Assembly: GCA_030685235.1 (NCBI GenBank)
Contig: MU839126.1
Span: 246,031-310,030, forward strand
Reading direction: 5' to 3'
DNA: 64,000 nt
Origin: Copromyces sp. CBS 386.78
Taxonomy: Eukaryota > Ascomycota > Sordariomycetes > Sordariales > Sordariaceae
This document shows, in pieces, positions 8,401 to 48,094 of the stretch. Numbering within the stretch: the first letter of the stretch is position 1; each line of letters begins with the position of its first letter. Position numbers and translations under genes: made by a program. The notes below the pieces were generated by a model that worked only from the letters and a program-made list of their open reading frames with translations, did not search any database and had not been told where the DNA came from.

Positions 8401-8480
8401 GGAGTGCTTAGCGAAATAGTATATAAAGTATACGAAGAAGGTATGGAAGTGAAGGTAGCGAATAAGTTATAATATTTAGT
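5461..8480 (+). pseudogene. RIP-degraded ORF of unrecognised mobile element
   Basis: The plus strand keeps long semi-open reading frames interrupted mainly by TAA and TAG, as expected where CAG, CAA and TGG codons were hit by RIP. The best stretches are about 5,930-6,280, with a basic Lys/Arg/Glu-rich tail, and about 7,640-8,430. The second includes an uninterrupted 67-codon run at 8,063-8,266 and ends in a Lys-rich region. No reverse transcriptase, integrase or DDE signature was recognised. It may be a gag-like or accessory ORF of an element between the gypsy and copia relics, but that is inference. Confidence 0.4.
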
Positions 8481-9149
8481 AAATTAATTATTTATATCCT
8501 TTAACTTTTTTGCGTAGTATAAATCGGCGCCCTTATTTTATATCCCTCGTCTTTCTTTTCCTTTATCGAATATTTAAATTTATAGTACGGAAGTAATTCA
8601 ATATATTTTCACCACTTCCGAAGGGAAAATTTGAATTAGGGTATTTTTATTAAAATAAATATCGGGATATTTATAGAACTACGATATTAAAGAGCGGATT
8701 TACTCTAGGGCTAAATAGAATTAAAGATAGAAAAGTATAAGAAGGATAGTATTCCCTTTTAAACTATAGATAAGTAAGTAAGAAGAAAATAACAAATTAA
8801 ATACTAATATTCTTAAAATCTTTATAATACTCCCTTTTAAAATCTTTAATTACATTCGTAAAGTACCTTCTATCTTCTTTAATACCGACTTCCAAATCCG
8901 TACTTCGCTATCTTGAAAAAAGTATAGAAGTAAAGTTCTACTTCACTTTCTATCTTTCTTTTTAGTAGTTTTATAACTATAATTTGACAACTCCATCCAA
9001 TCCTACGGACAAAATCATCAGCTCTAGATCTACTCCTCGCCATACAAATTTATATAGTGTAGCCCCGTTCCTTTATTGGTATAGTTTTACTCCATTTCAA
9101 TATTACCTATAGAACAACTTTCTAAATTAGTAGGGCGTATTAAATTAAA

Positions 9150-12100
9150 GAGGAAATTTACCCCTTGAAAAATTCAACGATTTTCGATTTTAATAGTTCG
9201 CTTTATATTTTTAATAAAATTATTTATTTCCTTTATTTTCGTTATATTAATTTAAATAATTATATATAGGCTAGAAATACTTAGGTAGTAATTAAAGGGT
9301 TTAAGGAAGTTAACGTTATTATTAGAAGAAAGAACGGTCCTTTAAAGCTATAATTAAAAGAGGTCGCTTTCTACCCTAATTTCGCTATTAATTTCGTTTC
9401 TTATATTTAATTACGAAGGTAAGGTTTTCATTAGGATTATTACCCTCCTAATAATTATTCAAAGAAAGTTAATAAATTATTCTTTTATTATCTAAATATT
9501 ATTTATAATTAAACAGTTATAGAAATTATTCCCCTCTTGTTTATTAAAACTTTATTCGTAATACGTTAATACGAAATCATTTCCTATATTTAACGCCCGT
9601 TTAAATAAATAATAAATATCTAGTATTTACAATTCGGGTATTTAAGACTATAAATATTTAACTATTTATAAAACGTTAACGGGGTACGGATCCGTAGTAT
9701 ACTATTAATTAAATATAACGCGTATACTATAATAAAGATTAAGCGATAAGTTTACTATATACTTAGGGATTACGGCTATAGATTAAGGGAGAAATTCGTA
9801 ACGGATTTCCTCGAATTTAATAAAGGAAATAACGGGGTTAAATATCTCTTCCTTATTATATACTGCTAATTTAATTATATTTAGGACTACTATTTATTAA
9901 ATTGTTAATCGATTATTATCGTTATTATACTAGTATCTTATATCGATATATTTAAATAGTAGTATAATAATTAAATTAAAACCTTCGAATTCGATAATGA
10001 ATTTATAAATAACGAGATCTAATAAAGGTTATTATAACGAGGAACGATAATTAAACCCTTTATTCCTAATATATAAGTATAAAACGGCGGGGCAAAGCGT
10101 TTAAGGGGTATAGTTAAAGAAAGATATAATACTATATTAATAAATTCGAAATTTCCAATCGATTTATAGCTAGAAATTACTACCGCAATTATTTATTTCA
10201 TTAATAAATCCCTTTGGTACCTTTATAATTAGAAATCTCTATTTGAACGGTTTCATACCTATATCGTTCAATAATATAATTATTAAAAGGCATACAAACT
10301 AAATCTAAATTACCTTAAAATCTATAAATATAAAGCTTTTATAATAATGAGCACTACTTAGAAGAAAGAGAAGCGGCGTTAGAAATATCTACTTAAGGCG
10401 TAGATAAATTTCTTTATTAGTTATTTAACAACTTCAATCTACTGTATATAGAATCCGTATATAAACCGGATTATTTAAATTAGAAATATAATTTTTAACG
10501 AGGAAATTATATATAATCTAAATTTTAAAAAGTTAAAAGAGGACTTACAAATTAATAGTAAGGAGCTAGCGGATTTGTTTAATAAATTCGACGAATTGTA
10601 TAATTAATTTTCGAGGGTATTCGAACTATTAGAGAGAAAAGGCTACGGCCTATAAAATAATATCGATAATATTAATATTAAACCGTTATTATCGAATCTT
10701 TTAAATAGAAATTATAAATAGAATTAAAATATTTCCTAGGAGGAAGATAGTTAACTATAAGAAGGAGTTAATCCGTACTATATTTTAAATAAAATATTTA
10801 TCGAATATATTATAGGTATGTATTTATCGCTTCTATTAATTCCGCTGGCAATACTTAGCGTAGGTTATATAATAGACTGAATAATTTATAAATATTTATA
10901 TTAGTAAGAACCCTAGGAAGTTATATTCAACGTTAGGAAATTATTCTAATTAATTTTTAAGACGATAGGGAAAATTATTACCAAAGCGGAGGTATATCGG
11001 CTAATTACTAAACTAAACCGATTTAATAGAATTTATTAATAAAATTTACCCCCCGTACCCAAATATTATAGCAATTTAAATAACTATTTACTAGGCCAAT
11101 TTTTTAAAAAAGTAGAAAAGACCTATTTATAAAATTATAAAAATATAAAGATGTAAATTGAAGTTAGCGGGGATATATTATAGTTATAAAGTAAATAAAT
11201 TTTCGATTATATATAAATATACATCTATAAATTCAATAAAAATAGGACGCTTAATAAATATAAAGTACGGCTCGTTGTAAAAAGCGATTAATAAAGTAAG
11301 AATAGTATAAATACGTACGCCTCTACTTTAGTAAAGAGGTCGTTTAAATCTATTATTACTCTCGCCGCAAGATTCAATTTTGAACTAATTTAATATAATA
11401 TAATTAATACCTTCGTTAACGTATACTTCGATAAGGAAATCTATATATAAATACCTCCCGGGTATTAAATCCTTAATAAAGTTCTTAAATTAATTAAAAT
11501 ACTATATAATTTACAACGAATATTTCTATTATAGTAAAGGGAATTTAACGGTACGTTCAAATTTATAAGCTTTAAAATAATCCCTAAAGATCCGTATATT
11601 ATAAAGAAGAATAATATCCTTATATTTTATTACGTTAATAATATTATATTTATATTTAATAAAAGTAAAATAGAGGAGGTTAATAAAAATATTATAGAAC
11701 TATAATTAAAATATTACTTTACGGGAGGAAACGAGCTCTAATAGTTTTTGGGCATTAAAATTATCCGTAATCGAGATTAGAGAAAGATTTGGCTATTATA
11801 GGAAGCTTATATTGAAAAGATTTCTAAGTTACTTAAATTTAATTTTTAACTTACTCTAATACCTATAGGGTATATAGAATTAATCCCTTATAAAGGCATT
11901 ACTAATTATACGGAGATCCGCTCTTATTAAATTAATATAAGTTTACTATTCTACGTAGCGGTTAATATTCGACTAGATATCGCGTTCCCAGTAAGTAGAT
12001 TAGTACGATATAATTATAATCTTAGTCCGGCTTATTTAGTAATTAGCGAAAAAGTAATACAATACTTTTAAATTATTAAGATTTGGGTATTATACTTCGG

Positions 12101-23114: not shown

Positions 23115-25882
23115 ATGACCACGCCAGCTATGGACACGACGGACGAAACTGCCGAATCGTCCCGCTCGGCGGAGACAAGCCATCGCCCTTCTGCTCTTCC
23201 GGAAGTCAGCAAGCCGAATTCAGAATCACCATGGCCTTCAGCTTTGCCACCATATCTCAGATCGTATGAAGCATACATTGAATATTGTATGGCTAGATTC
23301 GAACATGAAGGGGTACCCAAAGCAGCGTATGAACGCTTGTGCGCGAGTTGTACAGCGGCGTTCAAGATATTGTCCGAAGCTTTTGTTGATTGCAATTGGA
23401 CAGAAAGCTGGAATAAAGAAGTTCCCTTCTGCAGCGTCAATCAGTTCCTCAGATCAGCTTCTGAAGGAAACTGCCATGTTTGTCATTCCCTCATGGCTAA
23501 AACCCTTGGAGGCAGAAGTAACTCACTGGATACGCATTTTAAGCACCATATTTTACGTGCTGAGAGTGGGGAATCAGATGTCGATACACCCGAGCCGGGT
23601 GACGCGGCGTTACGCTTGCAAATTATTTCAGGCAATGGTTTAGCAGAACCTCCTTTAACGGGTAGTCTGTACTTACATTGCGTGGGACGTGGCAAGGGGA
23701 AGGTGACGCTCGCGAATATTGGCATTGAGGTCAAGGATGAGCATTACAGCGGAGGTAAGTAAGGTATTTTCTTACGACGCTGTCAGATAAACACTACATA
23801 CGCGTTAAAGCTATATGACACGGAGGATTAGCTAAAATTAAACATGGTTTTCTAGCCCGTGGTTCCCCAACTTCAGTCATTACGGCAAGGGACGGAAGCT
23901 GGAATCAAGCGATCAAATGGATGGAAAACTGCCGCTCGCACCCCCTCTGTAACGCGGTACAGACGACTTTGCAAGATAAATGGCCTGCTCGGCTGGTCGC
24001 AGTGGGAACCCCTGGAGATACATACGTGAGGGTTTGCGAAACAAGTCGAGATGGTTTTGCGAAAGAACCATACATGACACTCAGTCACTGCTGGGGCAAA
24101 AACGGAGTACCTATTCGGCTTTTGGAAGAAAATTATGCTAGGTTCTTGGACGGCATTCAACTTCGCGAGCTGCCAAACACGTTTCGAGATGCCATCGAAC
24201 TTACTCGAAAACTAGAGATCCCCTACATTTGGATTGATTGCCTCTGCATCATTCAGGATTCACCGGGAAATCAAGACTGGACTCGAGAATCAGCCAAAAT
24301 GCAAGAAGTCTACCGGAATTCTTTTCTCAACCTGGCCGCTGGTGCCTCATCCGATTCCAACGGTGGCCTCTTCAAACGACGATATCCGCTCTCGGTAGTA
24401 CCTTGGTCAGTACCAGTGGCAGAAAACGTCTACTTAACCAGCATGTATACCAACGAACATTTCATATATGGGGTTCCGAAGCTCATCCTCTCCACCCGCG
24501 GATGGGTACTTCAGGAACAACTCCTGGCACGGCGAGCCCTTACATTTGGGCAAGCTGAACTACATTGGGAATGCTCAACGTGCCAAGCGAGTGAATCCTT
24601 CCCAGATTCCTACGAAAAACATGTATTCACGAATCTCTGGATGATGGAAACTGGCATATTCCGGCCTGCCTGGGAGAACCTCCTCAATGGCAAGCTAGTC
24701 GACACGGACCGACAAAGGGCATGGAATCGGCTAATAAAAACATACACTAGGAGGTCTCTGACCATGCCCTCAGACAGGCTTGTGGCTATTTCTGGCCTTG
24801 CAGAGCAGTTAAGCAGCAGATGGAGTGGCATAACGTATCTTGCCGGACTGTGGTCATATCGCCTTATTCATGGGCTTTTGTGGTATAACGAGGCCAAAGG
24901 TCAAAGCATAAGAGATATGGAGGTAGCCCCTTCATGGTCTTGGGCTTCCCTTATTCACGAGCGTCAACTGAAACGGCCGTTGTACGGATTGAAAGGACAT
25001 GAAGACAGATTAGAATGGATCGATGTCCTGGCGGAGGCTCTGGACGCTTGTGTAACGCCAAAAACTACAACCAACCCCTTTGGCCCCGTTGCTTGCGGGG
25101 GAAGCATCAAGCTCCGGAGCCCAATAATTCGAGGTAAACTTGCTAGAAATTACCAGAGGTACACATGCAATCTTGCAATCGAGGACAACGGTAACTTGGG
25201 TACCTCTACGCTTCTGATCAAAGATGTGGAGGTGAAATGGGACGACATCAACGATGGCAAGGCTGATTTAGAAGAGGTGTACATTGCACCATTCGAGATT
25301 GTAGCCCACGACAGCTATGACTGGGCGGTGGCCCATGGATTGGTTTTCTTGAAGACAACAGTCCCCTTGCTTCCCGGAAGAACGCAGTGGCGGCTTCGAA
25401 GGGCTGGGTATTTTGAGCTCGGCGACGATTATTTTTGCGTACACAGCGAGGATTGGTTTATGAAGGGTGATGAACGACTTTCTTCTGATTATGACTCTGA
25501 CAATGGCTGTCATGACAATGGATCCGACAGGAATAGAGCCGACGTTCTGTATCGTGCGATGCGCTGGAAAAGAGATATCGACAAGCTGAAGAGGAAAGGC
25601 CTATTCCGACATTTGGACTCATGGTTTGCTGGAAAGGTCGGAGATTCACCGGAAGAACGAATGAATTATCTGAGGAGAGACCCGTATTTTAACGGCCCTC
25701 CGTTGAATACTAATCTGGAGAATCGTTACCCCCCCAAGATGTGGAAACGCCTTTTCCCTCACATCTCACATTTTCTGGAGACTATCGCCCAGGTGGCCCG
25801 GAACAACAAGGCAAACGGGACTCCGGACCCGGTGCTCGGGTTGGGGGAAGGGAACGGGTATTACACATACGAGATTGTGTGA
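23115..25882 (+). CDS. HET-domain protein (heterokaryon incompatibility family)
   Basis: Exons are 23,115-23,754 and 23,856-25,882, giving 888 residues. The 101-bp intron has a GTAAGT donor and a TTTTCTAG acceptor, and joining restores one frame across the junction. The HET domain starts near residue 280. It shows YMTLSHCWG, LPNTFRDAIELTRKL followed by IPYIWIDCLCIIQD, the block SAKMQEVYRNSFLNLAAG, and GWVLQEQLLARRALTFG. In characterised cases, HET proteins trigger growth arrest or cell death when genetically different hyphae fuse. The N-terminal 213 residues, with a CASC and CHVC Cys pattern, are a partner-specific region common in this family. There is no NACHT or repeat domain, so this is a stand-alone HET type. 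Whether it acts in allorecognition here is unknown. Confidence 0.9.
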
Positions 25883-26523: not shown

Positions 26524-27426
26524 TCAATGCCCACCATGGGCCCCCTCATGCCCCTTATGCCCCTCCCCCGTACCCATCTCAAACCCACTGCTCAACCGAA
26601 CATCAACCTCCAACAACATCTCCCTCGGCGGCGCATCCCTCCTCATCAACAACCCATAACAATGCTTCGCATGTGCCCACCCATCAAACCTCCTCTCCAT
26701 AACCGCTCCCGTATCCCTCATCCGCACCAGCTTTTGCCAGTAAAAAAGACAATGGGCTAGATGCCATTCTCTTGTTGCCCAAAAGACATTTCCTCCCTTT
26801 GCTTGGTTATCTGCTAAAAGGGAGATTTGGTGAGCATTGAGACGGACACTGCCGTTTTTGTCGGCATAATAGTGCCATGAGCCCCCGTCACCAGGTCCGG
26901 AATGGTCGAAAATGGTGGTTAGTTCCGGGTCCCGGCAATGCGGTGGGAGCCAGGCGGCTGCCATGCTGTCGTAGACGCAGTTTAGAGAGGCCGCTTCGTT
27001 GGTGGAAGAACCGCAGGAGCAGAGGTCGTAAGAGGGGGAAGGGTAAGTGGAGGGGCGGTAGACGTCCATGTCTTTTGTTGTGGTGCTGCTTGTTTTTAGC
27101 GTTGATTGTGACTGGGGATGAAAATGGTAAGAGGGGAAGATAGGTGTTATGGGAAGCACCAGTTGGGCTAGCTGAAGAATGAGGGAGAGGAATCCCCAGA
27201 TGGCCAAGAGGTAGAGGATTAAGTCTGGACACGAGCGGGAGAGGAGACGTCGGAGGGAGGAAGGCGAAGGCCTGCGGTGTGGCCGTGGACGTTTGTGGGA
27301 TGTGCTGTCAATGGCGTCTTCGAGGTCGACGTCTGTTGTCGACGAGTTTTCTGCTTCTTGATCTTCTTCTTTGCGGTCCTTCTCGTGATTTTTCTTCGGG
27401 AGAAAGGGGGTCATGGATTGGCTCAT
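26524..27426 (-). CDS. Single-pass membrane protein with paired HxxHC motifs (UstYa-like)
   Basis: The frame is open from 27,621, but the ATG at 27,426 (MSQSMTPFLP) is the likely start, giving 300 residues. A basic, Ser/Pro-rich cytosolic N terminus is followed by one membrane segment at residues 68-92. The outer part has CSCG (136-139), further Cys residues, then HLAHC (222-226) and HAKHC (252-256). Two HxxHC motifs about 25 residues apart after a single N-terminal membrane helix is the layout of the UstYa/DUF3328 family, whose members oxidise or cyclise RiPP peptides. The flanking sequence differs from typical UstYa, so this is a distant or merely analogous member. The tail is Gly/His-rich. 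It lies 1.9 kb downstream of a clear UstYa gene on the same strand. Confidence 0.7.
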   Translation of the reverse strand: MSQSMTPFLPKKNHEKDRKEEDQEAENSSTTDVDLEDAIDSTSHKRPRPHRRPSPSSLRRLLSRSCPDLILYLLAIWGFLSLILQLAQLVLPITPIFPSYHFHPQSQSTLKTSSTTTKDMDVYRPSTYPSPSYDLCSCGSSTNEAASLNCVYDSMAAAWLPPHCRDPELTTIFDHSGPGDGGSWHYYADKNGSVRLNAHQISLLADNQAKGGNVFWATREWHLAHCLFYWQKLVRMRDTGAVMERRFDGWAHAKHCYGLLMRRDAPPREMLLEVDVRLSSGFEMGTGEGHKGHEGAHGGH

Positions 27427-29298
27427 GTTGTGAGTCGTAGTCCCTTTAGGACGTGATTTGGAGGTTGTGTAGATGGTTGGACATGAGTAAATGAAGAGAG
27501 ATGGGCGAAGAGCATTTTGATGGATGTAACGGCTAGCCTGACAGTTTGCCATTACAAAAAATGGATGCTTATGAATGAAATAGCATGGGGTAAGTGCAAC
27601 TGGTGAGAGTATCGAAAACAAAATGTAACCCTATTTTCATTTGGGGAACTGAAGGATCTCGGTTGTCCGGTCAATACCACAGACCGGTGACATTGACACC
27701 AGACACTCAGTCGGTAGCTCCTGGGCACATGTCTGATCTCTCTTACCTAAGGCCGGATGGTCTGAACGCAGTTTCCTATCAAAGCGTGTGCTAGGGATTG
27801 CCAATGCGCTTTACGAAGAAGCCATTACGACCTGCAACGCCACGACAAGTCTTTCCGCTTTGATGTATCAGCACAAGTAAACACACAACTGAACCTTTGA
27901 CAAAGCACGCAACTAACGCACCGAAACCCCTCCCGCCCACTTTCCGTTCTTGATCAACCATCGCGTGCTCAACCCCTCACGAACTTCACTCGCCTTACCT
28001 GGCTCGTTCCTTGTTCCCGATCAAGCTGCGACTGGCTGCCTCAACCTTCACCCGACGTTCCTTCAAACGGATATCTTTCAGCTGTCATGCTGAAACCCCT
28101 CTTCCTCAAAAGGCAGGTAGCCTTCAACGAAAGTCGGAAGCATGACGATGTCGTAGCAGTGCATCTGTGATCGCTGTTCAAGACGCGCTTCTGGCTATGT
28201 GATGGTGAAGGGCGAGGTCGGAGGTGATAGTCACGACACGGGATTGGAACGAGCCGAAAGTTGGCGACATGATGTTTGCGACTTCCCGACAGCATGTTGT
28301 GGTATTGGCGGTTGCAAAATCCTAAAACGGCGATGATGAGGTGAGGTGTGAGATGTGAGGTGGTAGTGAAATCGTTCGGAGCTTTGTGTCAGTCCAAAAA
28401 GGGGAGCTGTCATTGTCCTGTCGAGACCTGGGATATGGGTATGCAAATCGACTCGGGCGCGGAAGCGAATAGACTGAAACGCTTTTGGGTTCTAGATCCC
28501 CGCACGCGATGATCAACGTAGCTTCATGATAGGATTGAAACGGAAGAGCAGTAGGATGCTTCCATGGTCCAGTCCCTCTGATCTGATCTGGGAATGGAGT
28601 GCTGAATATGGGATATCGGCAGACTGAAGATGCCCCCTTCTCGTGCGGAACCCCAAAGGAGATAGTCAGCCACCATCTCATTAAGATCGGTGACATATCT
28701 ACTCAAGAGTTGGGACGAACCTCCCGTCTCCGACTTTGATACCACGATTGGCGCCGCGGGCCGAACCGTGGCCCCGTCTCGAGCCCGTCTCTCGTCAGAA
28801 CCATCTTTTCGCATCTAGTCATCTCGTCTCGTTTAGGTCGCACTGCATCAATCACGATCGATAGTCCATCTTGGCTTCCACCTGACCACCCCAGATGAGC
28901 TTGCATGCATTTTCGTGCTGAGTAGGTGACAATCTTGGTAACAATAGTTTGACTGAAATCGCATGAGGCCAACTAGCCTCATATGATACCAACCGGAATG
29001 TCGTGATGAATATGGTTTCCTAGGTTGTGTTTATCTTCTCTTTCCCTAGTTTCTCCGCACTTTGAGGGAACGAGGCGGCGGTGCAGTCGAAATAAGGATT
29101 GGAGCGATGTTACCGTGCCCATGTGTCAACTAAACTGGGGGGGGCGGCACGACATCTGGACGATCCTGTACGTGATGATAGCTTCGTTCCCGGATAGGAA
29201 AGTAACAAGCAATTTGGACAAAAGAGGAGGAAGATTGGCTTGGCACGATAGTTCTAGGTTGCGATGTGGTTAGGTCGTTGCTTGCTTATCTGCATACC
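27427..29298. other. Gene-poor interval inside the candidate RiPP locus
   Basis: About 1.9 kb of ordinary composition with overlapping short frames, mostly on the minus strand (28,040-28,970). These share no recognisable domain and do not splice into a convincing product by eye. A small multi-exon gene cannot be excluded. The left part should contain the promoter of the HxxHC membrane-protein gene. Confidence 0.4.
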
Positions 29299-30549
29299 TC
29301 ACGAATGCGAATGTGATTGACCCTTTTCGCTACTCTCTTTCAACGTGCCATCCTCATTCAGATGCAGAATCCCGCCTGCCTCTGTAAGCCCCACATTGAC
29401 GTGGTGGTGAGAGGCATTTCGGTCATACGGATCGCCTGTTTGTGATTGTCTGTGTCAGTCGCAAAGAGCGGAAAGCATGGAGACGAATGTCGTAGCTCAC
29501 CGAAGATGGGATGCATCAAAATGCCTGGCTCAAAGGGATCAAAAGAGTTCTCCTTCACCCAGTCAAAAATTGAGTCCCAGTTTACACATGTGTGCTTTCC
29601 CCGGCCTTGGGAAACAGGCTTTGGATCGCTGTGGAATATCGATGTCAGTAATCATTTTAACTGTGAAAATGCGAAACAAAACTTACTCGGTCGTCCACTC
29701 CATAGGAAGAAGAGTCGTGTCGGCATTGCACTGGAGATACTGCAAGAAGTAGTCGATGCAATGCTCTGTATGCTTCAGCAGAGCAATGGCTTGCATCTCA
29801 CTAAGGTCCGGATAATAATGGTCCTTGTAGATGTATTTCCGCAGTCTCTCAACACAGTGAAGCCCATGGAAGACTGATACAGTGAAGTAGTAGGACCCGT
29901 CTGTCAGGCGAATGACAGTGTCATCGTCCTGGAACTGGCCCATGTCTTTTCTGGGGATTCGAACGTTCTGAACTGTTTCAGCGTGTTAGAATCTTCGGGA
30001 ACTTGACAACAACGTTAGAAACAGAAGAACTTACAGCGGAGAAGGTCATCCCAAGCGTTTTCCAGCTCTGGTCTGGGTGGGCCATTGAAGTCGATGTTTC
30101 CCTTCTGTGTGTTCAATGACATGTTTTTGCCCAAGCCATAGATGGCTCCCATATCAAACGCCCTTTGTTCATATTTCACCACGGAACGGAACGGAGCTAC
30201 ACATCTGCCAGTCAGAGTCATCCTCTAGAGAAGCCGCAGGATGGGTAAGGAACGGTGAAGATGGGAGAAACTTACTTGGCTCGTGCTGAGGATCGGTATA
30301 ACGAACGGGAACAATGACCCCTTTCGTGTAGGCGATGAAGAGGAACAAGTTTGTTGCTATGAGCAAGGCATGGACGGTAACAGAGCGCCAGTGTCGTTGA
30401 ATCCATGAGCCTTTCGAGCCCGCCCAGCGTGCTGATGGAGTGGTTGAGAACTCACCAGACTCCTCGTCACTGCCGTCAGACTCGCGTTTTGGGGAGTATG
30501 AATCTTCCCCGTCAACTGGGAGATACTTGGTGGGCTTGAACTTGTCCAT
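29299..30549 (-). CDS. UstYa-family (DUF3328) oxidase-like membrane protein
   Basis: Five exons on the minus strand: 30,549-30,276, 30,196-30,035, 29,972-29,687, 29,628-29,501 and 29,435-29,299, giving 328 residues. Introns are 79, 62, 58 and 65 bp with GT-AG ends, and all phases join correctly. Residues 57-75 form the single membrane helix. Then come KYEQRAFDMG, FNGPPRPELENAWDDLL, HGLHC (181-185) and HTEHC (213-217) followed by YFLQYLQC, and a late HTCVNWDSIFDW block. These are the defining UstYa/DUF3328 motifs, with paired HxxHC thought to bind metal. Family members act in oxidative cyclisation of Kex2-released peptides (ustiloxin, asperipin pathways). The gene is head to head with the repeat precursor at 31,362, 0.8 kb away. 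The last intron could be retained, giving a different C terminus ending at 29,358. Confidence 0.88.
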
Positions 30550-31361
30550 TTTGAAGAACTCAATGAGTAAAAGGCAGACACAGAAACCGGCTCTGGCAGG
30601 CTCCTGAGAAACGAAACGAAAATGAATGTCGAGGTTGTGAAAAGGATAACAAACAACCCGACTAGAATTCGGATGTATTAACTGGCTAGGGAGTATTGCA
30701 TAATCCCATAACAGACACAATGCAAATCACAAGGATAGCAGGCAGAATGGGGGTAATGTTGCAGTGGTTGATATCCGGCCGATATCGCATCAGACTATCC
30801 TTCCCCGACTGCAACCCCATGTGTAATCCAGAAAGCCTCTTGTTTAACGGCGTAGGACCAACTCTCAACATCACTTGCAGTTCCTCTGGTGACTATCAGA
30901 GGATCAAGGTATGATCGGCCTTGCATCAACATGATGCCCAGAGAAAACGAATACCAGCTTCCTCTTCCGGCCAAACTTGCACCATCTTCGTGCCCATGAT
31001 GTTTGTAAAGCGATATCTAATGCAATCCAAAGTGCTTGATGAATGGATTCAGCTGACAAGATTGCGCAAGTATCTCCGTTACAAGAGCAGCATGATCAAA
31101 AGTGCTTGTTGCCAAGTGAGGGGGTCAGTCGGGCGCCGTTCAGGTCCGCCCTCTGTGTTCGTCCTGGAGTATTGATTGGGCAAGAAAGGAAATCGGCAGT
31201 ATAAGCGGTGATGGCGAGATATCAGGCAGCGATGACCAAGACCGCTCAAGTTGATAGAAATAAATAGACCAGATATCCCGTCCTGTGAGCTTCATCAAAG
31301 CCAAGTCAAGCACTTGCCCCCATCATCCACTCACCGCTGATTCTCCCTCCTGTTTTTCAAG
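30550..31361. promoter_or_regulatory. Shared divergent promoter region of UstYa gene and precursor
   Basis: This 0.8-kb interval separates the starts of the UstYa gene (-) and the repeat precursor (+). A TATA-like AAATAAATAG at about 31,256-31,265 sits about 100 bp before the precursor ATG. Short frames here show no domains. Co-regulation of the two genes is an inference from the head-to-head layout. Confidence 0.4.
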
Positions 31362-31884
31362 ATGCACATCACTCAGACCTCCTTCATCATTGCCTTCCTG
31401 GCCATTGGTGCCATTGCCCTCCCAACTCCTGGTAAGCATCTCCGGAAGGATGGATCGCCCGAAAGCTGGCACTAACAGAAATCTAGGCAAGTCAGACGAG
31501 GCCTGGACCCAGATTATCAACAAAGAGCCTCTCCATGATGATCACAACGAGGCCAAGAGATCCAACGATGAGTCCTGGACTCAGATCATCAACCCCACGA
31601 CCAAGAGAGCCAACGACGAGGCTTGGACTCAAATCATCAACCCCACGACCAAGAGAGGTGAGGAGGAGAGCTGGACTCAGCAGATTGGCAGGGACAACAA
31701 GGAGGAGAGCTGGATCCAGCAGATTGGCAAGCGAGCTGAAGAGGCTTGGAATGTCGACCCTCCTCCTCCTGCCAAGAGGGCTGATGAGGCCTGGATCGTT
31801 GATCCTATCCCTCCCGCGACCAAGAGAGGTGAGGAGGAGAGCTGGACTCAGCAGATTGGCAGGGACAACAAGGAGGAGGCCTGA
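31362..31884 (+). CDS. Secreted Kex2-processed repeat precursor, probable RiPP precursor
   Basis: Exons are 31,362-31,431 and 31,487-31,884, giving 155 residues. The 55-bp intron has GTAAGC, ACTAACAG and TCTAG signals. Exon 1 supplies a signal peptide, with a hydrophobic core at residues 8-19 and ALP at the likely cleavage site. The rest is eight Trp-containing units (Trp 30, 54, 70, 86, 99, 111, 126, 143). Lys-Arg Kex2 sites lie at 47, 63, 79, 105, 120 and 136. Units run acidic spacer, Ala or Ser, Trp, then a variable core such as WTQIINPTT, WTQQIGRDN, WNVDPPPPA or WIVDPIPPAT. This is the architecture of fungal KEP/dikaritin precursors, and the UstYa neighbour supports that. A longer frame starting at 31,285 across the intron is less likely because it lacks the signal peptide. 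The product and any activity are unknown. Confidence 0.85.
31646..31878 (+). repeat. 62-bp exact direct repeat within precursor gene
   Basis: A 62-bp segment at 31,646-31,707 recurs without change at 31,817-31,878, 171 bp (57 codons) downstream and in the same frame. It encodes the TKRGEEESWTQQIGRDNKEE unit. Identity at silent positions indicates a recent duplication or gene conversion between units. Confidence 0.9.
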
Positions 31885-31990
31885 ACAAGTATATCACAAA
31901 GCGGTCTGATCCGGAGGCGTGGACTCGGATTATTAACCCCACGACCAAGAGTGCGAACGATGAGGCCTGGACTAACTTAGAGTCTTCTGA
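31885..31990 (+). pseudogene. Out-of-frame continuation of precursor repeats after the stop
   Basis: Directly after the TGA at 31,882-31,884, repeat-unit coding sequence continues in another frame (from 31,887). It includes a Lys-Arg, PEAWTRIINPTTK and NDEAWT. The stop coincides with the position where other units have a TGG Trp codon, which points to a one-base loss there. The annotated gene is therefore probably a truncated allele that has lost two or so terminal units. A sequencing error is the main alternative. Confidence 0.7.
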
Positions 31991-37956: not shown

Positions 37957-38810
37957 AGGCTGGTCAAACCACGGTTGCTAGCTGACCAAGAATCGACTGC
38001 GTTACACCATTCGGACATGGTGACTTCCCAACAAACGGTCGACGCAGCTGGCGACGAGACCGCGCCCCGGGCAGTTGAGAGCTCACCAGCCTCGCTTTCG
38101 GGCATGGCCTTTGGTTCTTGCGACTGATACGACTGCAAAGCCGTTCCTTTGGATTTGAGACGCAGTCATACACTACGCTTGGCTTTTCTCACCCCTACAC
38201 CGACGTCGGAGGCGTGGCTGAGCGCTCGTTGAGAGCATGAGCATGGGGCTGAAGCATACGAAAAGCATGCTTATCAAACAAACATATAGGAATAACGGAT
38301 GATATCACTTTTGGGAGGGTAAATGGGTGCAATTAGGTTTTCTATCTTTTCATCATGGCCATTGTTTAGACGTCGAGTTATGTTTTCTCTTTGGAATTTT
38401 TGTGTTGTCGGCTTGGCGTGGGTTGCGTACTGGTGGATAAAAGAAGAGAAGCAGGGAAGATGATGTTGATACCAGAGAGGAGCAACTTGCGAGTGCGTGG
38501 TTCTGAACGCTTGATACCTTCCTAGCTGAGATCACAAGCCAGGTGGTATCACTTGCACTGCCGCGGCTGTCAATAAAGAAGTCAAAACCATTGCTGTTTC
38601 ACGCACCTGTGATCTGTTTTCTCTTATCTCAGTAATCAGACCATCATCTTTTTTAGGCAGGGGGCGACCTGCGGCCGCCAAGGATTGGGCCTGCGGCCCG
38701 TGCGCTGCGCGCACTGGGTTTCTCAATTGAAAGTTTCTAAAGTTTCTAGTTCGTGGTCCGTACACCGTTTCTTTCAGTGTATTTGACGGTATTGATTGAG
38801 AACGCCTAAA
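37957..38810. other. 3' flank of perilipin gene up to RIP boundary
   Basis: No gene was recognised. A GC-rich patch at about 38,660-38,720 (GCGGCCGCC, GCGCTGCGCGCACTGGGTTT) precedes the RIP block and may be the edge of a dispersed repeat. The change to AT-rich, TpA-rich sequence occurs just after 38,820. Confidence 0.4.
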
Positions 38811-38830
38811 AAAGAGGTCTGAATTCCCAA
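38811..38830 (+). repeat. Left inverted repeat of RIP block 2
   Basis: A 20-bp sequence around GAGGTCTGAATTC matches, with three differences, the reverse complement of 45,221-45,240. Weaker similarity continues about 16 bp inward. Confidence 0.55.
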
Positions 38831-39199
38831 CTGGGATTAAATGCTCAGATATTTAGGCGCCCTATACAAATGTATATATATGGAGAAATATACTATATAA
38901 TATATCTAGCAAAATAAAACCTTTTGAAGATATAATAGATATTATGATAATGTATTCGACAAGACGGTTTTAATAGTGTAATTAGTTTTTTAATACGATT
39001 ATTAAAAGTATTAATTTTAAATAAAAATATAAAAAAAGTTACGTATTAATATAGGACTATGGCAGATTTAGGAGGCTATTATAACCTTAATTTTCATTCC
39101 AACTCTTTAAAACTTTATAAGTATAGAAATTATACTATTATTAATTATACCTTATATTTTTTTTTTACCCGCGATGCATTTTTCTTCTTCTTAGAATTA

Positions 39200-41930
39200 A
39201 TACCTATTAATTAATACTATAGACGACCCCGACGACTTTATTAATGCCCAGTGCGTATTGAGGGTAATGTAAGATATTATTGGCGAAGGCCGATAATTAA
39301 GGGATGGCTAGGTTTAAACGGTAGTATAGTTAGTAATTGAGAAGAAAGATACAATATTAGTGGCCGCGATTGGGTATAGTAAAAGTATTATACTTTATAC
39401 GTTTTTAGCTTTGTGTAATAAAATTATTATATAAATTGTACCCCTTACGAAGCTGGGAGAAAGTTAGTGTGACGATATTATTATAAAGGTTCCTGGTTTA
39501 CGGCTAGTTTGGATAGATAAAGATGTAGTTCTTCGTATAAGCTTTATCTTTTATATATATATATATATACTTAGTTAATAACCGTATAGAATAGGAATGT
39601 ATAGGATTAAGTTACTGCCGGAAATTATATTTATATTCTTCTAAGCCTAGAGCTTGTAATTAGTGCGAAATTTAAGGCCGTATTGAGATTGCTAGAGTTT
39701 TATAAAAAGATCGGTCTTTTTACTATCGACGAGTTGTATTGCGTGTTAGAATAGCGCGATTTCCGTAAAGAATTCTAATATTTATATACTTTACGCCCTC
39801 TCCTTCTTAACTGTATACTGTAGTTCGGTTGTACGGTTATATTAGTTGGCATTTATTAAGACTTTATTATTAAAAAGGCTAGGTTTGATATTAGAAACTT
39901 TAAGATTATTAGAACTTTGGTAGATAGATTAGAAATCTCTATTATTATATAGCCGTTACTTTGTAATTGTATTGGAGATTTTCGTCGTCTTTTTTTTCTT
40001 GTCGATAACTATACTCCTTCGACTAGATGGGATATTTTAAAAACTATTATTTATATCGATAACTGTAATAGTTTAGCTATAGTAAGAAATACGTTAATTA
40101 ATTACCTTTATCGGTAGGGTTTTAGTAAGGAGATAGGCTGTAAAATCGTTAGAGTATATAATTCTTTAGTTCGGCCAACGGATAAAGATATTATATATAA
40201 AGATTTTGCTGTTGAGTCGACGGATTGTTGTATATACTTAGCTATGATATCTTTAGGCATGGGGATAGATCTCTTAGATGTCGTTCGAGTTGTATAGTTC
40301 GGAATACCCCCTACTCCTAATATTCCGGATATTTGGCAGCGCTTTAAAAGAGTAATACGGAAACTAAGGAATAATAATTTGTAGGGAGAAGTATACTTTT
40401 TTATACTATACTAGGTATTTAATTATCTTAGTTTAGGAGAAAAATAACCCAAACGATAAAGATAATAGTAATAATAATAATAATAGTTTCGTTAGCTATA
40501 TTAACTAAGAGTATCTAATAGGTTTATAAATGTTATTGTATTAGTAGACGAAGAAAATAATATAGATAACGATAGCGATAACGAGAATAATAATAAGGAC
40601 GATAATGAGGGAAGGGGAAACGGATAGGAAAATATTAATAATAATAAATTATCGCTAAATACTAGGAATTTTTATTCTTTATATAAGTTTGAGTATAAGG
40701 TTAAATAGTCGAAACCTAACGATAAAGTTCGCGCTAAGTATTAAAAGTAGGACTTACTTTTTATAGAATTTTTTAACGCACCCTACTTTCGTAAAACTAT
40801 TTTTAATTATTTTTAAAAACCTCCTAATAAAGATCTTAAGTATAAACGGCCTATCCCTACTAGAAAATATTATAATAGTAGTGGTTATATTCCTTTACTT
40901 GGAAGAATCCTAGTAATGTTAGAGCGTAACCGAAATAAAGTATTTAATAAATTAATAATAGGGTTATTAGTAGACAAAGTAGTATTGTATATTAATAGTT
41001 GGTATAAGGGGAAAGTATAAGAATTTATCCTTAAAGCGAATTGAATATTCGAAATTACACTAAAAATACTAATGCCAAACCGGCTACAATATACGGTAAT
41101 ACGTCTTTTTACCGATAATTCGAACGTTCGCCGGAATAAGGTACTTCCTTTTATAAACGTTAATAGGCTGGAAGAAAAGCTCCCTACTATACGATAATAG
41201 GAATATAAAGAGGATTATATCGAAAATCTTATTAAATTTTGCTTATTATTAATTACAAAAATTCATAAAAATTAAAATAAAGAACATCCCCGACCTCAAC
41301 GCCAAACCTAGCCTCGATCACGTACTAATATAACAATAGCAATTACAACTCCTTCGACTCCTATTCGTTAATATATAGCCTCTCTTTTGGCCAACACCTT
41401 AAATCGCGCTGCTATTACTACAATTGCTCCTTAATTGGAAGCTCCTCAATTAGAAGCTAGAGAGCCTTTAAACTCTTTAGTAATATCGGAGGCAGTAATA
41501 CCGGGGGAGCAATAACAAAAAGTAGAGTAAGGCGATAAAAATAAAGTTCAAAATAAAGAGGCTAAAGTGGGGCCAAACGAAAATCCGTTAATACTACAAC
41601 AATAACAACAATAAAAAGGATAGGAGGAGACTAATCGTATTATAATAAAATTTGCTAAATCTCTACTAGCGACTCCCCAACGTCAAAATAATAATAGGCC
41701 GCCGTCGCCTTTCGTTACTCTTATATAGTAATATAGCAATTAAAGACTTGCATTATAAGGACGAGGAAATTTGCAGGTAGTTACAACGGATTTACCAAAA
41801 GGCCGAATAGCTATTAAAGCAGCTTAAGCATTACTATTAATTAATAGGGGAAAGAAAAAACAAAGTAGGATTCTAATTATTAGATTACCAATTTATAAGA
41901 GGTAAATATAGATACTTTAAATATATAAAA
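39200..41930 (+). pseudogene. RIP-degraded RecQ-like superfamily 2 helicase
   Basis: Plus-strand translation keeps an ordered set of helicase motifs despite many stops. These are a QLRDGQ-like motif 0 near 39,300, a Walker A relic VAAIGYSKS at 39,360-39,386, VPLTKLRE-like Ia near 39,440, IDELYCVLE (motif II, DEAH type) at 39,725-39,751, and SLGMGIDLLDVVRVV followed by FGIP and QRFKRVIRK (motifs V and VI) at about 40,250-40,360. The arrangement matches RecQ-family helicases, especially the large fungal forms found in repeats and near telomeres. The Walker A and DEAH boxes are in different frames, and a TA-dinucleotide run near 39,557-39,572 lies between them, so indels add to RIP damage. A long charged, Gln-rich tail region continues to about 41,930. 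Confidence 0.72.
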
Positions 41931-42229
41931 TTAATTTTGTATAAATATTTAACAGCCTGAATATTCACGCCTCCTCCGAAAAACTCCGAAAAACGCCGAG
42001 ATATCTATCGAGAGTAACAATAATATCCGAAAATAAATTCGGATTTACCTACTTATTATTATTATTATTATAAATATCTTTAACCCTATTAATAGTTATA
42101 TCCTAGAAGTTTTTAGTACTATCCTCAAATAACCGCCCCCCTTCTTTACTATAATTAACAATACTATTTTAAGTAGCGAATTCGGTTATACTAGGAAGAT
42201 ATTTCTAGTTAACTATATTTATTAGGAAT

Positions 42230-44950
42230 AGGATAACCTTATTCTAATTAGCTAGTTTCTCTATAAGGTTTTACTATCCTAAAATATATATATTTAATAT
42301 ATTAAACCCTTTAAAATTAGGTATTATCTTCCTTTTTATTATACTATCCTTATATAGTTTAAAGGTATAAGAAATAATATTAATAAAAGGATTACTAATT
42401 ATGTAAATACCCCTAATAGGACGCCCCCAAAATCTTTCCGTACCCTTTCGAATAATAGTAAGAATATTAGAATTAAGAATAAACTGTATAAGCGTAACTT
42501 TAATATTATAAGTAGAATTCTTATTATTTTTAATATTAATAGCGTATACTTTGTTCTAATATTCGAATATTAGGTCGATGGGTTTGTATTTGTTATTAGC
42601 GGTGATTAAACGAATTAAGTTACTTTTTAGAATAGTATTACGAAGTATATTATTTAAAATATTTTTATATAGAAGCTATACAAAATACAATATTTCTAGG
42701 CTATAATTCTATAACTTTCTTCTATAGAAAATAATAGGTAAAATAGGGATAATTTTACGAAGAAAGCTATAATTGCCTACCCGGATTGCTTTGTAGATTA
42801 ATAGAAGAATTAATACTATTTGTATTAATTTATAATAGCTTAGAAATTTAATATCGATTTTTAAGGCTAAAGTGGGTCCGGCTTCTATAGGTCCTTCTCT
42901 ACTATCGATATTAATATCGCCTTCCTTATTAACGTTTATATTTGGATATTTTCTAATTTAGCTGTGTATAGAAAATATTATATCCTAAATTCGATTAAAT
43001 ATTTCTTTTATACTTTATCCGTTGTATTAGCCGTTAGATTCTTCGGTATATAGCGTTTTTATTATTAATTTAATACTATTAATAGTAAAATTATCGAAAT
43101 TTCTATACTCGACTAGCTCTCTAATAAGAAAAGCAAGGATTCTTATAATAAAACTATATATAATAAGAGGTATTATTTAGTAATATTTGATCTTTTCTTT
43201 CTTAATGTTCTTTAAACGTTGGAAAAAGAAAATATTAGAAGATATAGTAGCCGTAGAAAAGGCTATATCTTTTCCCCTATCTTAAAAATACCGGAATAGT
43301 ATTTCGATAAAATTAATTTCGATATGAAAAAAGGTAAGTATTAGAAGCATCTATTTTTTTTGCTCCTACTATTCGCTAGCTTCGATCTCGTAATATTAAA
43401 TACGTTTAATAAAAGACGTTATTTTTTAGTCTCTATATATAAGAATTAGGCGTTAAATTAGGGCGAATTTGTCGAATATAAAACGGTTATTCTATAATTC
43501 TTTATAAATACGGTAAATACCTTTAAATTTCCCTTCGTCTTCGTAGATAGTACTAATTTGGAGGTTTAGTAAGTCTATATACTTTACTTATTTAATAACA
43601 GGAAAATTAGGCAACTTCTTCTTTATTATAAGGTTATTAGTTGTATAGGAAAATAATAATTTAAAGGTAAAGTCTATAAGCTAATACGTAGCCTTATTAA
43701 TATTTAAACGCTTGGGAAGGAGGTAATTTACAATTATTTTTATTATGAATTTTTTAGTTCTATTAAAAGAAGATTGGAAAAGAGGGCTATACAATTCTAG
43801 GTATAATACTAAATTAGCCGTTATAAGATTAACTATTTAATTTTATTTTCTATTTGCCAATTTACGAACGGTAATTTTATAATTGAAATTATTGTATATA
43901 ATAATACCGTTAGGATTATATACCGCTCGTTTAATATTGCGTTTTACTTGTTCGGCTATATTATTAAATAGTTTATTAAGTATCGTATACGAAGATATAA
44001 TACTTATATTAGATAACGTTTAGATTACTCTTTTTAATATTCTAGTTGTTAATAAATAAAGATTAAGAACATTATAAAGGAAAGTACTAGTCTTTTTAGT
44101 ATATCTAAATATTAGAAGGGAAATAATAAGAATAATACGGCTATAGTGATCTTCGTTGACGCTATTATGTTCAATTTTATTATAAGTCTTGAACTATGTA
44201 ATAATTAATTATTTATAACTATTATAGTATTTCTTTACGAATATTAACCTAGTTAATTATAAATTAGTTTATTAATTCTATTAACGTAGGAGTAATTAAT
44301 TTGAAGGATAGTTAAGTTTACTTTAGAGTGCCCTCTAATTAAGAGGAATTATTTAAGTTAATAATAGTAGCTTCTTCCTCTCCTTAATAGACCTTTTTAA
44401 CTTCAAATTAGTTAAAAGATAATTCGTCGAATAATAACCGCATTTTATTGCGTAGTTTAAAGCTATAGTAGTATAGCTTATTTTAAGTACGAGTAATAGT
44501 GATGTTAAGGCTATAGTCGTTTTGAAGACGCTTCTACATCTTTTTTTATATTATAATATTCGAAAATTCTATAGTTTTGTAGCTGTATTTTATCTATTAG
44601 TATATAAAGATCTTAAAGTTATACTTCTTCAACCGGACCCTACCTTGCTCTGCTATATTTATACGAGAATAAGCCTTTAAACGAAGGCGCGCAAAGAGAT
44701 CTATAATTTCTTGGATAATATTATAGTCTTTATTATTAAAATTTTCTTGATCGGAGTCGTTATCCTCCTCGTTCGTTAGTTATACTTTTCCTTACTATAT
44801 TTAATATAGATATTCTAGTTTATTTGCGAATGCTTCTTATATATGATCTGGAAGTTCGGTATCGGTAAAAGGATTAAATATTAAACCCGAGGTTATTATT
44901 GAGAAGGGACGAATTATTAAAGAGGTACGATAATGGCCGGGATAGGAGGT
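42230..44950 (-). pseudogene. RIP-degraded DUF6589-like fungal element protein
   Basis: Reverse-strand translation gives long semi-open frames with the order seen in DUF6589 proteins. An N-terminal part lies near 44,500-44,700. A segment at about 43,850-43,950 contains IIIYNNFNYKITVRKLANRK, like the YDNFN-x-VR block of the family. Next come LITANLVLYLEL and LLPKRLNINKATY at about 43,690-43,860. A downstream core at about 42,540-43,140 includes LALKIDIKFLSYY, IRVGNYSFLRKIIPILPIIF and FILNSNILTIIRKGTERFWG. DUF6589 is widespread in repetitive fungal ORFs, and its biochemical role is not established. Recognition is from memory of the family pattern, not a search. Confidence 0.62.
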
Positions 44951-45220
44951 GGGAGGTCGTTAAGGTTATTATACTATTTAAGAGCGATTCTAATAATATT
45001 GTAGAAATAGGTACGCGGGGAGATTGCAAATGGATTGCGCATCCTTATTTTGGGACTTTTCGTCTATGTTGGCGATAAAAGGATAATACCGTTGGATAGA
45101 GTTGGGTTACGCGATTATAAATCTACCGAAATAATCGTAATACAATATGATTTGATGAAGTTATGGTATTGAGAGTTGGCGATTGGGTGGTTTGTGAAGG
45201 TTTGTACGGTTTGAATCGAA

Positions 45221-45349
45221 TTGTGAACTCAGACCTCCTTGAGCGGAGTGCAAAATATTGCCTAGATTGGTAGAAAAAATTAATTTATCGATAAAATATT
45301 AAAAGTGCGGTAACGGAAACATTGGCACGTGAGCTCAAGGTGGTCTGAG
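45221..45349. repeat. Inverted repeats at the right RIP boundary
   Basis: 45,221-45,240 is the partner of the left inverted repeat at 38,811. In addition, 45,228-45,244 (CTCAGACCTCCTTGAGC) is the reverse complement, with one mismatch, of 45,333-45,349 (GCTCAAGGTGGTCTGAG). The two arms enclose an 88-bp AT-rich spacer and could form a cruciform or be the ends of a small terminal-inverted-repeat relic. Confidence 0.6.
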
Positions 45350-46084
45350 CGCTGAGATAAGTTTTCTCGTGCATTTTGATGGAGGCGCAGTCCACAGATG
45401 AGTACGGTTATGCACTGCTGGGTAGTTGGGAAATTTGACGTGTTTTAGCATGCGAGCACTCAACCAGCGGACCTTGTGCTTCAGTCAAGCTTGAGAGATC
45501 ACCGTCGTTTCCATTCTGACCACAACATTGGGCCTCGCTCGTGATAGCCTCATTCGGGAATCGGGAGTGACCGAGAGAAATGCCACGCACATTGGTGGTC
45601 AAAGCTTTCTCAATCCCAAGGTGATGACCGACTTTGACGTAAGCTATGAGGCTAACCGTATTAGGTAAGGCGCCTCTTTGTGCTTCCCTTGAAGCCCCAC
45701 CCAAGCTCTCGGCTGTTTCCAGCTTTGTAATCATTTGTCGGAACCTCTCTTTTTTCACAGTCACTGCGACAAGTGAGTGTCGATGGGCTATACTGCCAAC
45801 AGCTGAGATCAGTGGCGGAAGCGGATGAGCAAGCAATTGGAGAGACTGACTGATCTGGCAAGGGCGGAAGTTTCACGATAGTTGTATATGATATTGACAA
45901 TTCCAGACTCCTTTCCTGACTACTCTTCTCACCCTGATTTCTAGTTGCTTACGTTGACCTTGATAATCTTTTAGACCATCAACAGGTGGACGACAGATTC
46001 CAACAAAGTTGAACAAGCTAGACCCAGCACCACTTATGGATTCGATCCTATAAGTATCCATCCTTTACTTTCAACTCCTAGGTC
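45310..46084. other. Intergenic region upstream of pirin gene
   Basis: Normal base composition returns after about 45,310. Short frames on the minus strand (45,408-45,900) have no recognisable domain. The segment should hold the pirin promoter. Confidence 0.45.
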
Positions 46085-47236
46085 ATGAAGAACTTTTTTC
46101 TCGTCGCCATCATCTCCATTTTTGTTGGCATCTGTTCCATCTTCCTACTGCGCGAACGCATCGACATCCTACAAGTCGCAAACCTCAACCTAAAAAACAT
46201 ATCTACACTCACAAACCAACTCCTCAACACCTACCTCACCAATCAACAACCCTCAGATACCTCTACATCAAACCCAACCACAACACACATCATCATCACC
46301 ACCAACCCCCAAACCTACAACATGTCCATCCCCCGCCTTATCCGCAAAATCTTCCTCGCCACGGAACAAGCAGAGGGAGCCGGCGCCCGCGTCCGCCGCT
46401 CCATCGGCACCGCTCAGCTGCGCAACTTCTCCCCCTTCCTGATGCTCGATCACTTCTCCATCCGGCCCGGCGCCGGGTTTCCCGACCATCCGCATAGAGG
46501 TCAAGAAACCATCACCTATCTTCTGCAAGGCGGAGTCGACCACGAAGACTTCGCCGGCAACAAGGGCACCATTGAAGCTGGCGACCTGCAGTTCATGACT
46601 GCCGGCCGGGGAATCATGCACGCGGAGATGCCGCGCCAGAACCCGGATGGGAGCGCGAACGTGGGCCTGCAGCTTTGGGTGGACTTGCCCAAGGAGTTGA
46701 AGTCTTGTGAGCCGCGGTACAGGGATCTTAAAGCTGAGGAGGTGCCGGCTGTTGAGACCGACGAAGGGAGGGTGAAGATCAAGGTGATCAGTGGGAAATC
46801 GCATGGGGTCGATAGTGTCAAGGACCTGGCGTACACGCCCGTGTGGATTTTGGATGTGGAGGTTAAGCCTGGTGGCAAAGTGGTGCAGGAGGTTCCCGAA
46901 GGGTGGAACGCTTTTGTTTATACCCTGGAGGGCACCACCATTTTCAGTTCGGGGGAGGGACAAGAAAAGAGGACGGTGGAGCAATACCATAATGTGGTGT
47001 TTGAACCACAGGGGCAGGCGGTTTACGCCGAGGTGGATGCGGGCGCGGAGAAGAGCGGAAGGTTCGTCCTGATTGCGGGAACGCCCCTCGATCAGAAGGT
47101 GGTGCAGTATGGCCCGTTTGTCCTGAATAGTCAGGAGGAGGTGTATCAGACTTTTGTGGATTATCAGACGCATACTAATGGGTTTGAGAGGGCGAAGGGG
47201 TGGAGGAGCGAGATTGGAAAGTCGATGACGCATTAG
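46085..47236 (+). CDS. Pirin-family protein with unusual N-terminal extension
   Basis: A single frame encodes 383 residues from 46,085, or 304 residues from the in-frame ATG at 46,322 (MSIPRLIRKI). The core is a typical bicupin pirin. Counting from the second ATG, the metal ligands are His56 and His58 in FPDHPHRG, His100 in GIMHAEMP, and Glu102. Pirins are iron-binding proteins acting as nuclear cofactors or quercetinase-like dioxygenases. The core start matches the usual pirin N terminus. The extra 79 residues begin with a hydrophobic stretch (residues 4-22) that looks like a membrane anchor or targeting signal, followed by Thr/Asn-rich sequence, which is atypical. The upstream start could be genuine or may just be open 5' UTR. 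Confidence 0.9.
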   Translation: MKNFFLVAIISIFVGICSIFLLRERIDILQVANLNLKNISTLTNQLLNTYLTNQQPSDTSTSNPTTTHIIITTNPQTYNMSIPRLIRKIFLATEQAEGAGARVRRSIGTAQLRNFSPFLMLDHFSIRPGAGFPDHPHRGQETITYLLQGGVDHEDFAGNKGTIEAGDLQFMTAGRGIMHAEMPRQNPDGSANVGLQLWVDLPKELKSCEPRYRDLKAEEVPAVETDEGRVKIKVISGKSHGVDSVKDLAYTPVWILDVEVKPGGKVVQEVPEGWNAFVYTLEGTTIFSSGEGQEKRTVEQYHNVVFEPQGQAVYAEVDAGAEKSGRFVLIAGTPLDQKVVQYGPFVLNSQEEVYQTFVDYQTHTNGFERAKGWRSEIGKSMTH

Positions 47237-47655
47237 TAACCGACCGAAGAAGGGGGATGGGGATGGGGGAGTTGAGAGATACCACATTTTTTTCTTTTGC
47301 TATAGTAGGGTTAGCTGGCAAGAATATGTCATGATGCGTTTCCCGAACTTCGCATGGTCTAGTTGCTGTGATGCTATATCCAAGCTCTTTGAGGAGGTTC
47401 ATGCTTCAAATGTTAAAAATTGACGTGAAAACAACTTTATTGTAAATGTAAATAGGTATCCCCTAACCAAACCAAGCCATGTTCAACCGAGCAACCCAGA
47501 TTCGTTGGTATGCCGAATGCAATCCTTCCTCCAACACCGCCTACTTCCTCTTGTTCTATTCCATGTCGTGTGTTCGTCCAAGCACTATTTCGGGCGTGGC
47601 TCTGTCCCTATCGTCTTCCATATTCGTGTGTATCGTTCCCGTCTGCGCCCCCCTT
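47237..47655. other. Intergenic region between convergent genes
   Basis: This holds the 3' flanks of the pirin gene (+) and copper-chaperone gene (-). No gene was recognised; frames here are short. Confidence 0.5.
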
Positions 47656-48094
47656 TTACTTCTTGGCCACTATCTCCTTGATCTGGTCTTTATCCCATGT
47701 AACAACACCATTTTTCTCGCCAGAGGTGATCTCCTTGCCTGGCTTGGCAACTGTTTGGATGACGTCCTCGTCGGAGAGAGGGGACTTCGGATCGACGACG
47801 ACGGTGGCGGTCCCGGCCTTGGCGTTGTCGTCGAAGGTGACATTGATATCTGTGACGCTTTCTTGCTTGGCTGGTTATATATTGTCAGTTTAGTTATGCA
47901 TGCTTCTTTGGGATATCGCGGCGGCGCGCGATTGAGATTATGTATGCCGTTTGGAAAGGAGAGGAGTAGCTTGGATGGGAACGACCGAACGAACCTTTGA
48001 ACGTCGTGAGGACCCTGTTGACGGCGTTGTAGCAGCCGCTGCAGCTCATGCTGATGTTGAACTTGTAGGTCACGGGTTCCTCGGCGGCGGACAT
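47656..48094 (-). CDS. ATX1-like copper chaperone (heavy-metal-associated domain)
   Basis: Two exons on the minus strand, 48,094-47,995 and 47,870-47,656, give 104 residues. The 124-bp intron starts GTTCGT and ends AACCAG, and the phase-1 junction restores the frame. The HMA motif MSCSGC (residues 16-21) with Cys18 and Cys21 is the Cu(I)-binding MxCxxC site. Ala-Lys residues and TVVVDPKSPLSDEDVIQTVAKPGKEI follow the betaalphabeta fold of ATX1. The protein is expected to carry copper in the cytosol to the secretory-pathway P-type ATPase (Ccc2 type). It is longer than yeast Atx1 by about 30 residues, mainly in the middle and C terminus. The donor GTTCGT is not the preferred GTAAGT, so the junction deserves transcript support. 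Confidence 0.88.

Follow-up and report, generated by a model that had tools for sequence, protein, structure and literature searches.

A candidate three-gene dikaritin-like locus with a tryptophan-centred repeat precursor in Copromyces sp. CBS 386.78

In a 64,000-nucleotide stretch of Copromyces sp. CBS 386.78 (assembly GCA_030685235.1, contig MU839126.1, positions 246,031 to 310,030 of the forward strand; hereafter the window), positions 26524-31990 hold three genes: one for a repeat precursor rich in tryptophan (Trp), one for a UstYa/DUF3328 protein and one for a second protein with paired HxxHC motifs. With moderate confidence, we read them as a three-gene dikaritin-like pathway, in which a repeat precursor cut by Kex2 would yield Trp-centred peptides that UstYa oxidizes or cross-links, the second HxxHC protein likely acting as its partner. 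The elements of the locus are as follows.

31362-31884, plus strand: repeat precursor gene (gene model; exon 1, 31362-31431; GT..AG intron, 31432-31486; exon 2, 31487-31884)
31896-31979, plus strand: sequence resembling the precursor blocks, beyond the precursor stop and in another frame (71% identity to the blocks, E=1.1e-6)
30550-31361, no strand: divergent intergenic region of 812 bp between the precursor and UstYa genes (from the gene models)
29299-30549, minus strand: UstYa/DUF3328 gene, 328 residues (gene model and PF11807; exons 30549-30276, 30196-30035, 29972-29687, 29628-29501 and 29435-29299)
26524-27426, minus strand: second double-HxxHC single-pass protein, 300 residues (motifs and gene model)

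The repeat precursor and the UstYa gene

The precursor gene opens with an ATG at 31362, its stop codon ends at 31884, and the spliced product has 155 residues. Judged from sequence hydrophobicity, the N-terminus is likely a signal peptide; the protein contains eight Trp and six Lys-Arg sites but neither Tyr nor Cys, and its two Phe residues lie within the hydrophobic start. A 155-residue precursor with Lys-Arg sites, as described in an earlier note on this DNA, is thus borne out by the gene model. Each of the eight Trp is preceded by [DE][AS]. When the mature precursor was shuffled, none of 100,000 versions reached six Lys-Arg sites and none of 100,000 reached eight [DE][AS]W motifs; the repeat architecture is therefore beyond chance. 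The sequences that follow Trp are TQIIN (three blocks), TQQIG (two), IQQIG (one), NVDPPPPA (one) and IVDPIPPAT (one). Because two blocks share a segment with no Lys-Arg between them, the eight blocks are spread over seven Kex2 segments, a correction to the eight Trp units of the earlier note, and block-like sequence also continues past the stop. Ile or Val occurs no more than four residues after Trp in all eight blocks, a pattern spotted post hoc that 5 of 20,000 shuffles equalled. The computed [M+H]+ values of unmodified peptides are 1573.749 for ANDEAWTQIINPTT, 1392.643 for AEEAWNVDPPPPA and 1494.747 for ADEAWIVDPIPPAT, and, for the Trp-initiated forms, 1073.563 (WTQIINPTT), 992.484 (WNVDPPPPA) and 1108.604 (WIVDPIPPAT).

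Head to head with the precursor gene, across the 812-bp region, lies the UstYa gene, the five exons of which are joined across four GT..AG introns. Its product passes the PF11807 cut-off by a wide margin (E=1.5e-55; 188.9 bits against 25; profile positions 8-220 of 220), as scanned with a hand-spliced draft of 327 residues, one short of the final model. This agrees with the five-exon, head-to-head UstYa/DUF3328 gene of the earlier note. The protein carries HGLHC at residue 181 and HTEHC at 213, with 27 residues between the motifs and one hydrophobic segment ahead of them. Its 26 relatives include a 326-residue protein of Neurospora tetraspora (P0002) that is 94% identical, and the named ones are all from ascomycetes, including Hirsutella, Ophiocordyceps, Trichoderma, Xylaria, Apiospora, Aspergillus and Epicoccum. 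The intergenic region likely holds the promoters of both genes; no convincing shared repeat was found within its 812 bp.

A search with the precursor (database of 5.8 billion entries, 81 candidates, E up to 10) returned one relative, a 106-residue protein of Neurospora intermedia (P0001; E=8.9e-26, 58% identity over 72%). The two proteins share 26 of their first 29 residues, and all six Trp of the relative follow an [DE]EA spacer; its cores are mostly WTQNVG (four), and Ile or Val lies within four positions after Trp in five of six. That the precursor was not seen elsewhere has little meaning, because short repeat genes often lack annotation. We also considered an alpha-pheromone precursor that lies near UstYa by chance. 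Such precursors share the general build, namely a hydrophobic start, repeats, Lys-Arg sites and acidic or Ala-containing spacers; however, the window precursor has no Cys, and three repeats that match what we take to be the N. crassa alpha-pheromone pattern sit on another contig (C17). This identity was rejected, and we regard it as extremely improbable.

A second repeat precursor is encoded elsewhere in the genome, at C145:91175-91786 (L026:1175-1786) on the minus strand, about 1.7 kb from the first UstYa match there. It consists of seven units (six AYVWGSRGTN and one ADVWGSRGTN), each of which ends in Lys-Arg or Arg-Arg.

The second double-HxxHC family and its ties to UstYa

The second protein has one hydrophobic segment and two motifs, HLAHC at residue 222 and HAKHC at 252, separated by 25 residues. 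Its gene lies 1872 bp from the UstYa gene, consistent with the second single-pass protein that the earlier note had placed 1.9 kb away. The start codon is probably further upstream than 27426, perhaps at about 27552, because the in-frame stretch 27427-27552 (minus strand) is conserved as protein in four inspected relatives: the predicted protein of the window (P0028, 342 residues) begins at about 27552, and its N-terminus is common to P0029, P0032, P0033 and P0034. The Neurospora and Sordaria relatives P0032-P0034 are 76-79% identical to the second protein; taken with the 94% identity of the UstYa protein to that of N. tetraspora and the pheromone-pattern repeats on C17, this places the genome among Neurospora-type fungi.

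The earlier note had proposed a profile search against DUF3328, which separates the two HxxHC proteins of the locus: the UstYa protein matches PF11807, whereas the second protein scored over the cut-off of no Pfam family, and PF11807 was absent among its matches with E up to 1. Its paralogues in L016 and L017 gave no PF11807 match at E up to 0.01, and none of the 81 proteins that a search with the second protein returned, P0028 among them, has a Pfam entry in precomputed annotation. Across this family, the six HxxHC motif positions are conserved in 78/79 to 81/81 sequences, and four additional Cys (C136, C138, C150 and C164) are invariant in 29 aligned members. In a 500-residue protein of Sarocladium strictum (P0057), the family domain is joined to a methyltransferase-like domain, either by fusion or by merging of neighbours. 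We consider this family, for which there is no Pfam model, the more novel part of the locus, the literature having been checked under the term HxxHC only.

Several lines of evidence tie the second family to UstYa genes. A search of this genome located the family at five places, four of which (the locus itself included) are 1.3-2.3 kb from UstYa matches (C48, C121 and C139). In Apiospora marii, the two genes bear consecutive locus tags, PG991_009170 and PG991_009171, and are listed on contigs of equal size. In Ophiocordyceps camponoti-leonardi (P0004) and O. camponoti-saundersi (P0017), a UstYa domain is followed by a second-family domain in one predicted polypeptide, the latter domain having been assigned by eye; whether these are true fusions or neighbours merged by annotation, they would show adjacency. 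Both families are also listed on contigs of equal size in N. tetraspora and Truncatella angustata. Few of the 26 UstYa relatives allow linkage to be assessed; it is supported in five (P0002, P0004, P0014, P0017 and P0019). Through proximity, locus tags and joined polypeptides, the tie of the second HxxHC protein to UstYa genes has a stronger footing than the earlier note could know.

To compare the families, we aligned a profile of the second family (the window protein, 78 of the 81 relatives, leaving out P0028, P0057 and P0105, and two paralogues from C121 and C139) with one of UstYa (the window protein and 20 of the 26 relatives, leaving out P0004, P0017 and P0024-P0027). Hhalign gave a weak alignment of 80 columns in which both HxxHC motifs line up, at a score of 29.1, E=0.004 and a probability of 8.4%; the best of 100 column shuffles scored 25.6, and a reversed profile gave E=0.58. 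By this comparison the two families may share an ancestor, which we rate as possible to likely; the association between the second family and UstYa genes has the stronger support.

Known systems and genomic setting

The locus resembles the dikaritins ustiloxin, phomopsin and asperipin-2a in having a repeat precursor with a hydrophobic start and Kex2-type sites and an adjoining UstYa/DUF3328 gene. It differs from them in its cores, which contain Trp rather than Tyr, in encoding a second HxxHC protein that the Pfam model does not match and in its gene content. No Pfam match to a tyrosinase, methyltransferase or transporter was obtained in 19 stop-to-stop frames of at least 150 residues at 14-38 kb of the window (three of them scanned from an internal start codon onward), a survey that genes of shorter exons could escape; the earlier note had likewise seen none of these. 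An older definition of dikaritin clusters comprises five genes, tyrosinase and methyltransferase among them (PMC12048977), and according to the same source it has been suggested that DUF3328 proteins related to ribosomally synthesized and post-translationally modified peptides (RiPPs) are marked by paired HxxHC motifs. By sequence, the locus qualifies as a dikaritin pathway if a DUF3328 gene and a precursor suffice, as in the looser definition, and does not under the five-gene one. The minimal cluster of the earlier note, with its putative cyclic products, fits in so far as a Kex2-type, Trp-centred repeat precursor accompanies UstYa.

In a survey of Kex2-processed repeat proteins (Umemura 2020, PMC7329392), DUF3328 genes accompany 1758 of 7878 such proteins, and their counts are highest at the position adjoining the precursor gene. 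Trp occurs in 20.5% of the repeats of DUF3328-accompanied precursors versus 24.5% of the others, and one type, P-3, combines Trp and Pro in its repeats with a nearby DUF3328 gene, as does the locus. The likeness to P-3 is one of description, not of sequence, and the genera tabulated for that type do not include Neurospora. As DUF3328-accompanied precursors with Trp have already been surveyed, one of Trp type beside UstYa does not represent a new kind, nor does Trp alone signal an association with UstYa. The claim of the earlier note that the Trp cores are unlike known ones therefore holds in part: our literature search, with most subscription journals outside its range, found no report of the locus and no characterized Trp-core dikaritin product.

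Of the abundant types tabulated in that survey, Neurospora appears in three: one made up mostly of pheromones, one that mostly lacks DUF3328, and the POI2 type, in which 41 of 45 are DUF3328-accompanied (PMC7329392). POI2, an N. crassa precursor of ustiloxin type with a role in sexual development, belongs to the same general class of repeat precursor; however, the cores of its type are YxIx (PMC7329392), and the window precursor has no Tyr. In the part of an N. crassa cluster survey available to us (PMC9239088), RiPP is named once, for the poi-2 cluster. Both HxxHC proteins resemble CctR and other copper enzymes of the DUF3328 family, in which HxxHC(x)nHxxHC comes after a single transmembrane segment (PMC12435403). 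CctR is a homodimer that acts on a nonribosomal peptide, whereas the locus encodes two different double-HxxHC proteins, one of them without a Pfam match.

The assembly measures 49.8 Mb in 273 contigs. Within the window, the three genes are enclosed by an island of high guanine-cytosine (GC) content at about 14-38 kb (47-56% GC), in which Pfam matches are to DENN, HET, thiolase, perilipin and thiolase-related ketosynthase models and, through the spliced protein, UstYa. One further feature lies beside the cluster.

23921-25882, plus strand: HET-domain (heterokaryon incompatibility) gene (Pfam, E=6.4e-28)

Positions 1-12000, 38000-46000 and 58000-64000 have 24-39% GC and border gene islands of about 50% GC; by stretch, the values are 24-27% at 1-12 kb and 25-37% at 38-46 kb. 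These AT-rich stretches are presumably what repeat-induced point mutation leaves in Neurospora-type fungi. The GC-rich island that follows carries Pirin, Tcf25 and FDF-domain genes at 46082-54893 (Pfam was run on seven of the 24 long frames past 45 kb).

The proposed pathway and its alternatives

In the proposed scheme, the predicted signal peptide would direct the precursor into the secretory pathway, where both HxxHC proteins, to judge from the DUF3328 enzyme CctR, may bind copper. UstYa would then oxidize or cross-link the Trp-centred blocks, possibly through a bond between the side chain of Trp and an Ile or Val close by; a Kex2-type protease would act at the Lys-Arg sites, and the released peptides would lose their acidic spacers. 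The putative Trp-to-Ile/Val bond is the weakest step, as it draws on the post hoc Ile/Val pattern, which recalls the joined Tyr and Ile side chains of ustiloxins and phomopsins (PMC7329392).

Several observations weigh against this pathway. The repeat array continues out of frame past the precursor stop, for which erosion, splicing or an assembly error may be the cause, and it could mean decay, that is, a locus that has lost the end of its precursor and is out of use in this strain. We think this very unlikely, since the precursor retains an open frame of 155 residues with eight regular blocks, and the UstYa gene has an uninterrupted one whose product is 94% identical to its N. tetraspora relative. 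As noted above, Trp is not enriched in the repeats of DUF3328-accompanied precursors. No UstYa match lies near the fifth second-family hit in the genome (C28, E=0.04), and Aspergillus sclerotiicarbonarius and A. tubingensis list the two families on contigs of differing size. As to homology of the two HxxHC families, the hhalign probability of 8.4% is low; with the motif columns masked, 18 matching columns were left (E=0.0099, register unchanged); and a first run with smaller alignments (second family, the window protein and 28 of 81; UstYa, the window protein and 19 of 26, or those 19 alone) gave E=0.023 and a probability of 2.1%.

Another explanation is that the precursor releases linear secreted Trp peptides (a signal, a toxin or a surface peptide) through Kex2, and that the UstYa pair serves another substrate or none. 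The absence of Tyr from the precursor and the frequency of Trp, no higher beside DUF3328 genes, are in keeping with this, as is the fact that 6120 of the 7878 Kex2 repeat proteins have no DUF3328 gene nearby (PMC7329392). The arrangement of the genes argues otherwise: the UstYa gene stands head to head with the precursor gene at 812 bp, the genome yielding 16 UstYa matches on five contigs in a family search, and the position adjoining the precursor is the one at which DUF3328 genes are most numerous in the survey. We consider linear peptides an unlikely outcome and retain the dikaritin-like pathway.

Within that pathway, a missing activity or the role of heterodimer partner would most obviously fall to the second HxxHC protein. 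CctR (PMC12435403) is a hydroxylase that needs copper, oxygen and electrons; two coppers are proposed to sit in its HxxHC(x)nHxxHC, activity requires the His and Cys of that motif, and its authors postulate an unknown accessory protein that supplies Cu(I) or electrons. It is possible, if not what we expect, that the second protein is such an accessory of UstYa (for copper delivery, electron transfer or as a structural heteropartner) and not itself an oxidase. The occurrence of its family near or joined to UstYa, the postulate for CctR and the extra invariant Cys would suit this role; however, both motifs, which CctR needs for activity, are intact almost throughout the family, and their spacing is near that of UstYa (25 vs 27 residues). 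More speculatively, the second protein may belong to a widespread family of dedicated UstYa partners, either as one half of a heterodimeric copper oxidase or in copper loading or reduction, and the pair would cross-link Trp, not Tyr, to Ile or Val without a tyrosinase.

A locus of three genes with a Tyr-free precursor and no tyrosinase match nearby isolates the questions of residue choice and of Cu(I) or electron supply in UstYa/DUF3328 enzymes: it offers two candidate copper proteins, one substrate and defined masses. The partner family, lacking a Pfam model, would serve genome mining as a second marker of UstYa clusters.

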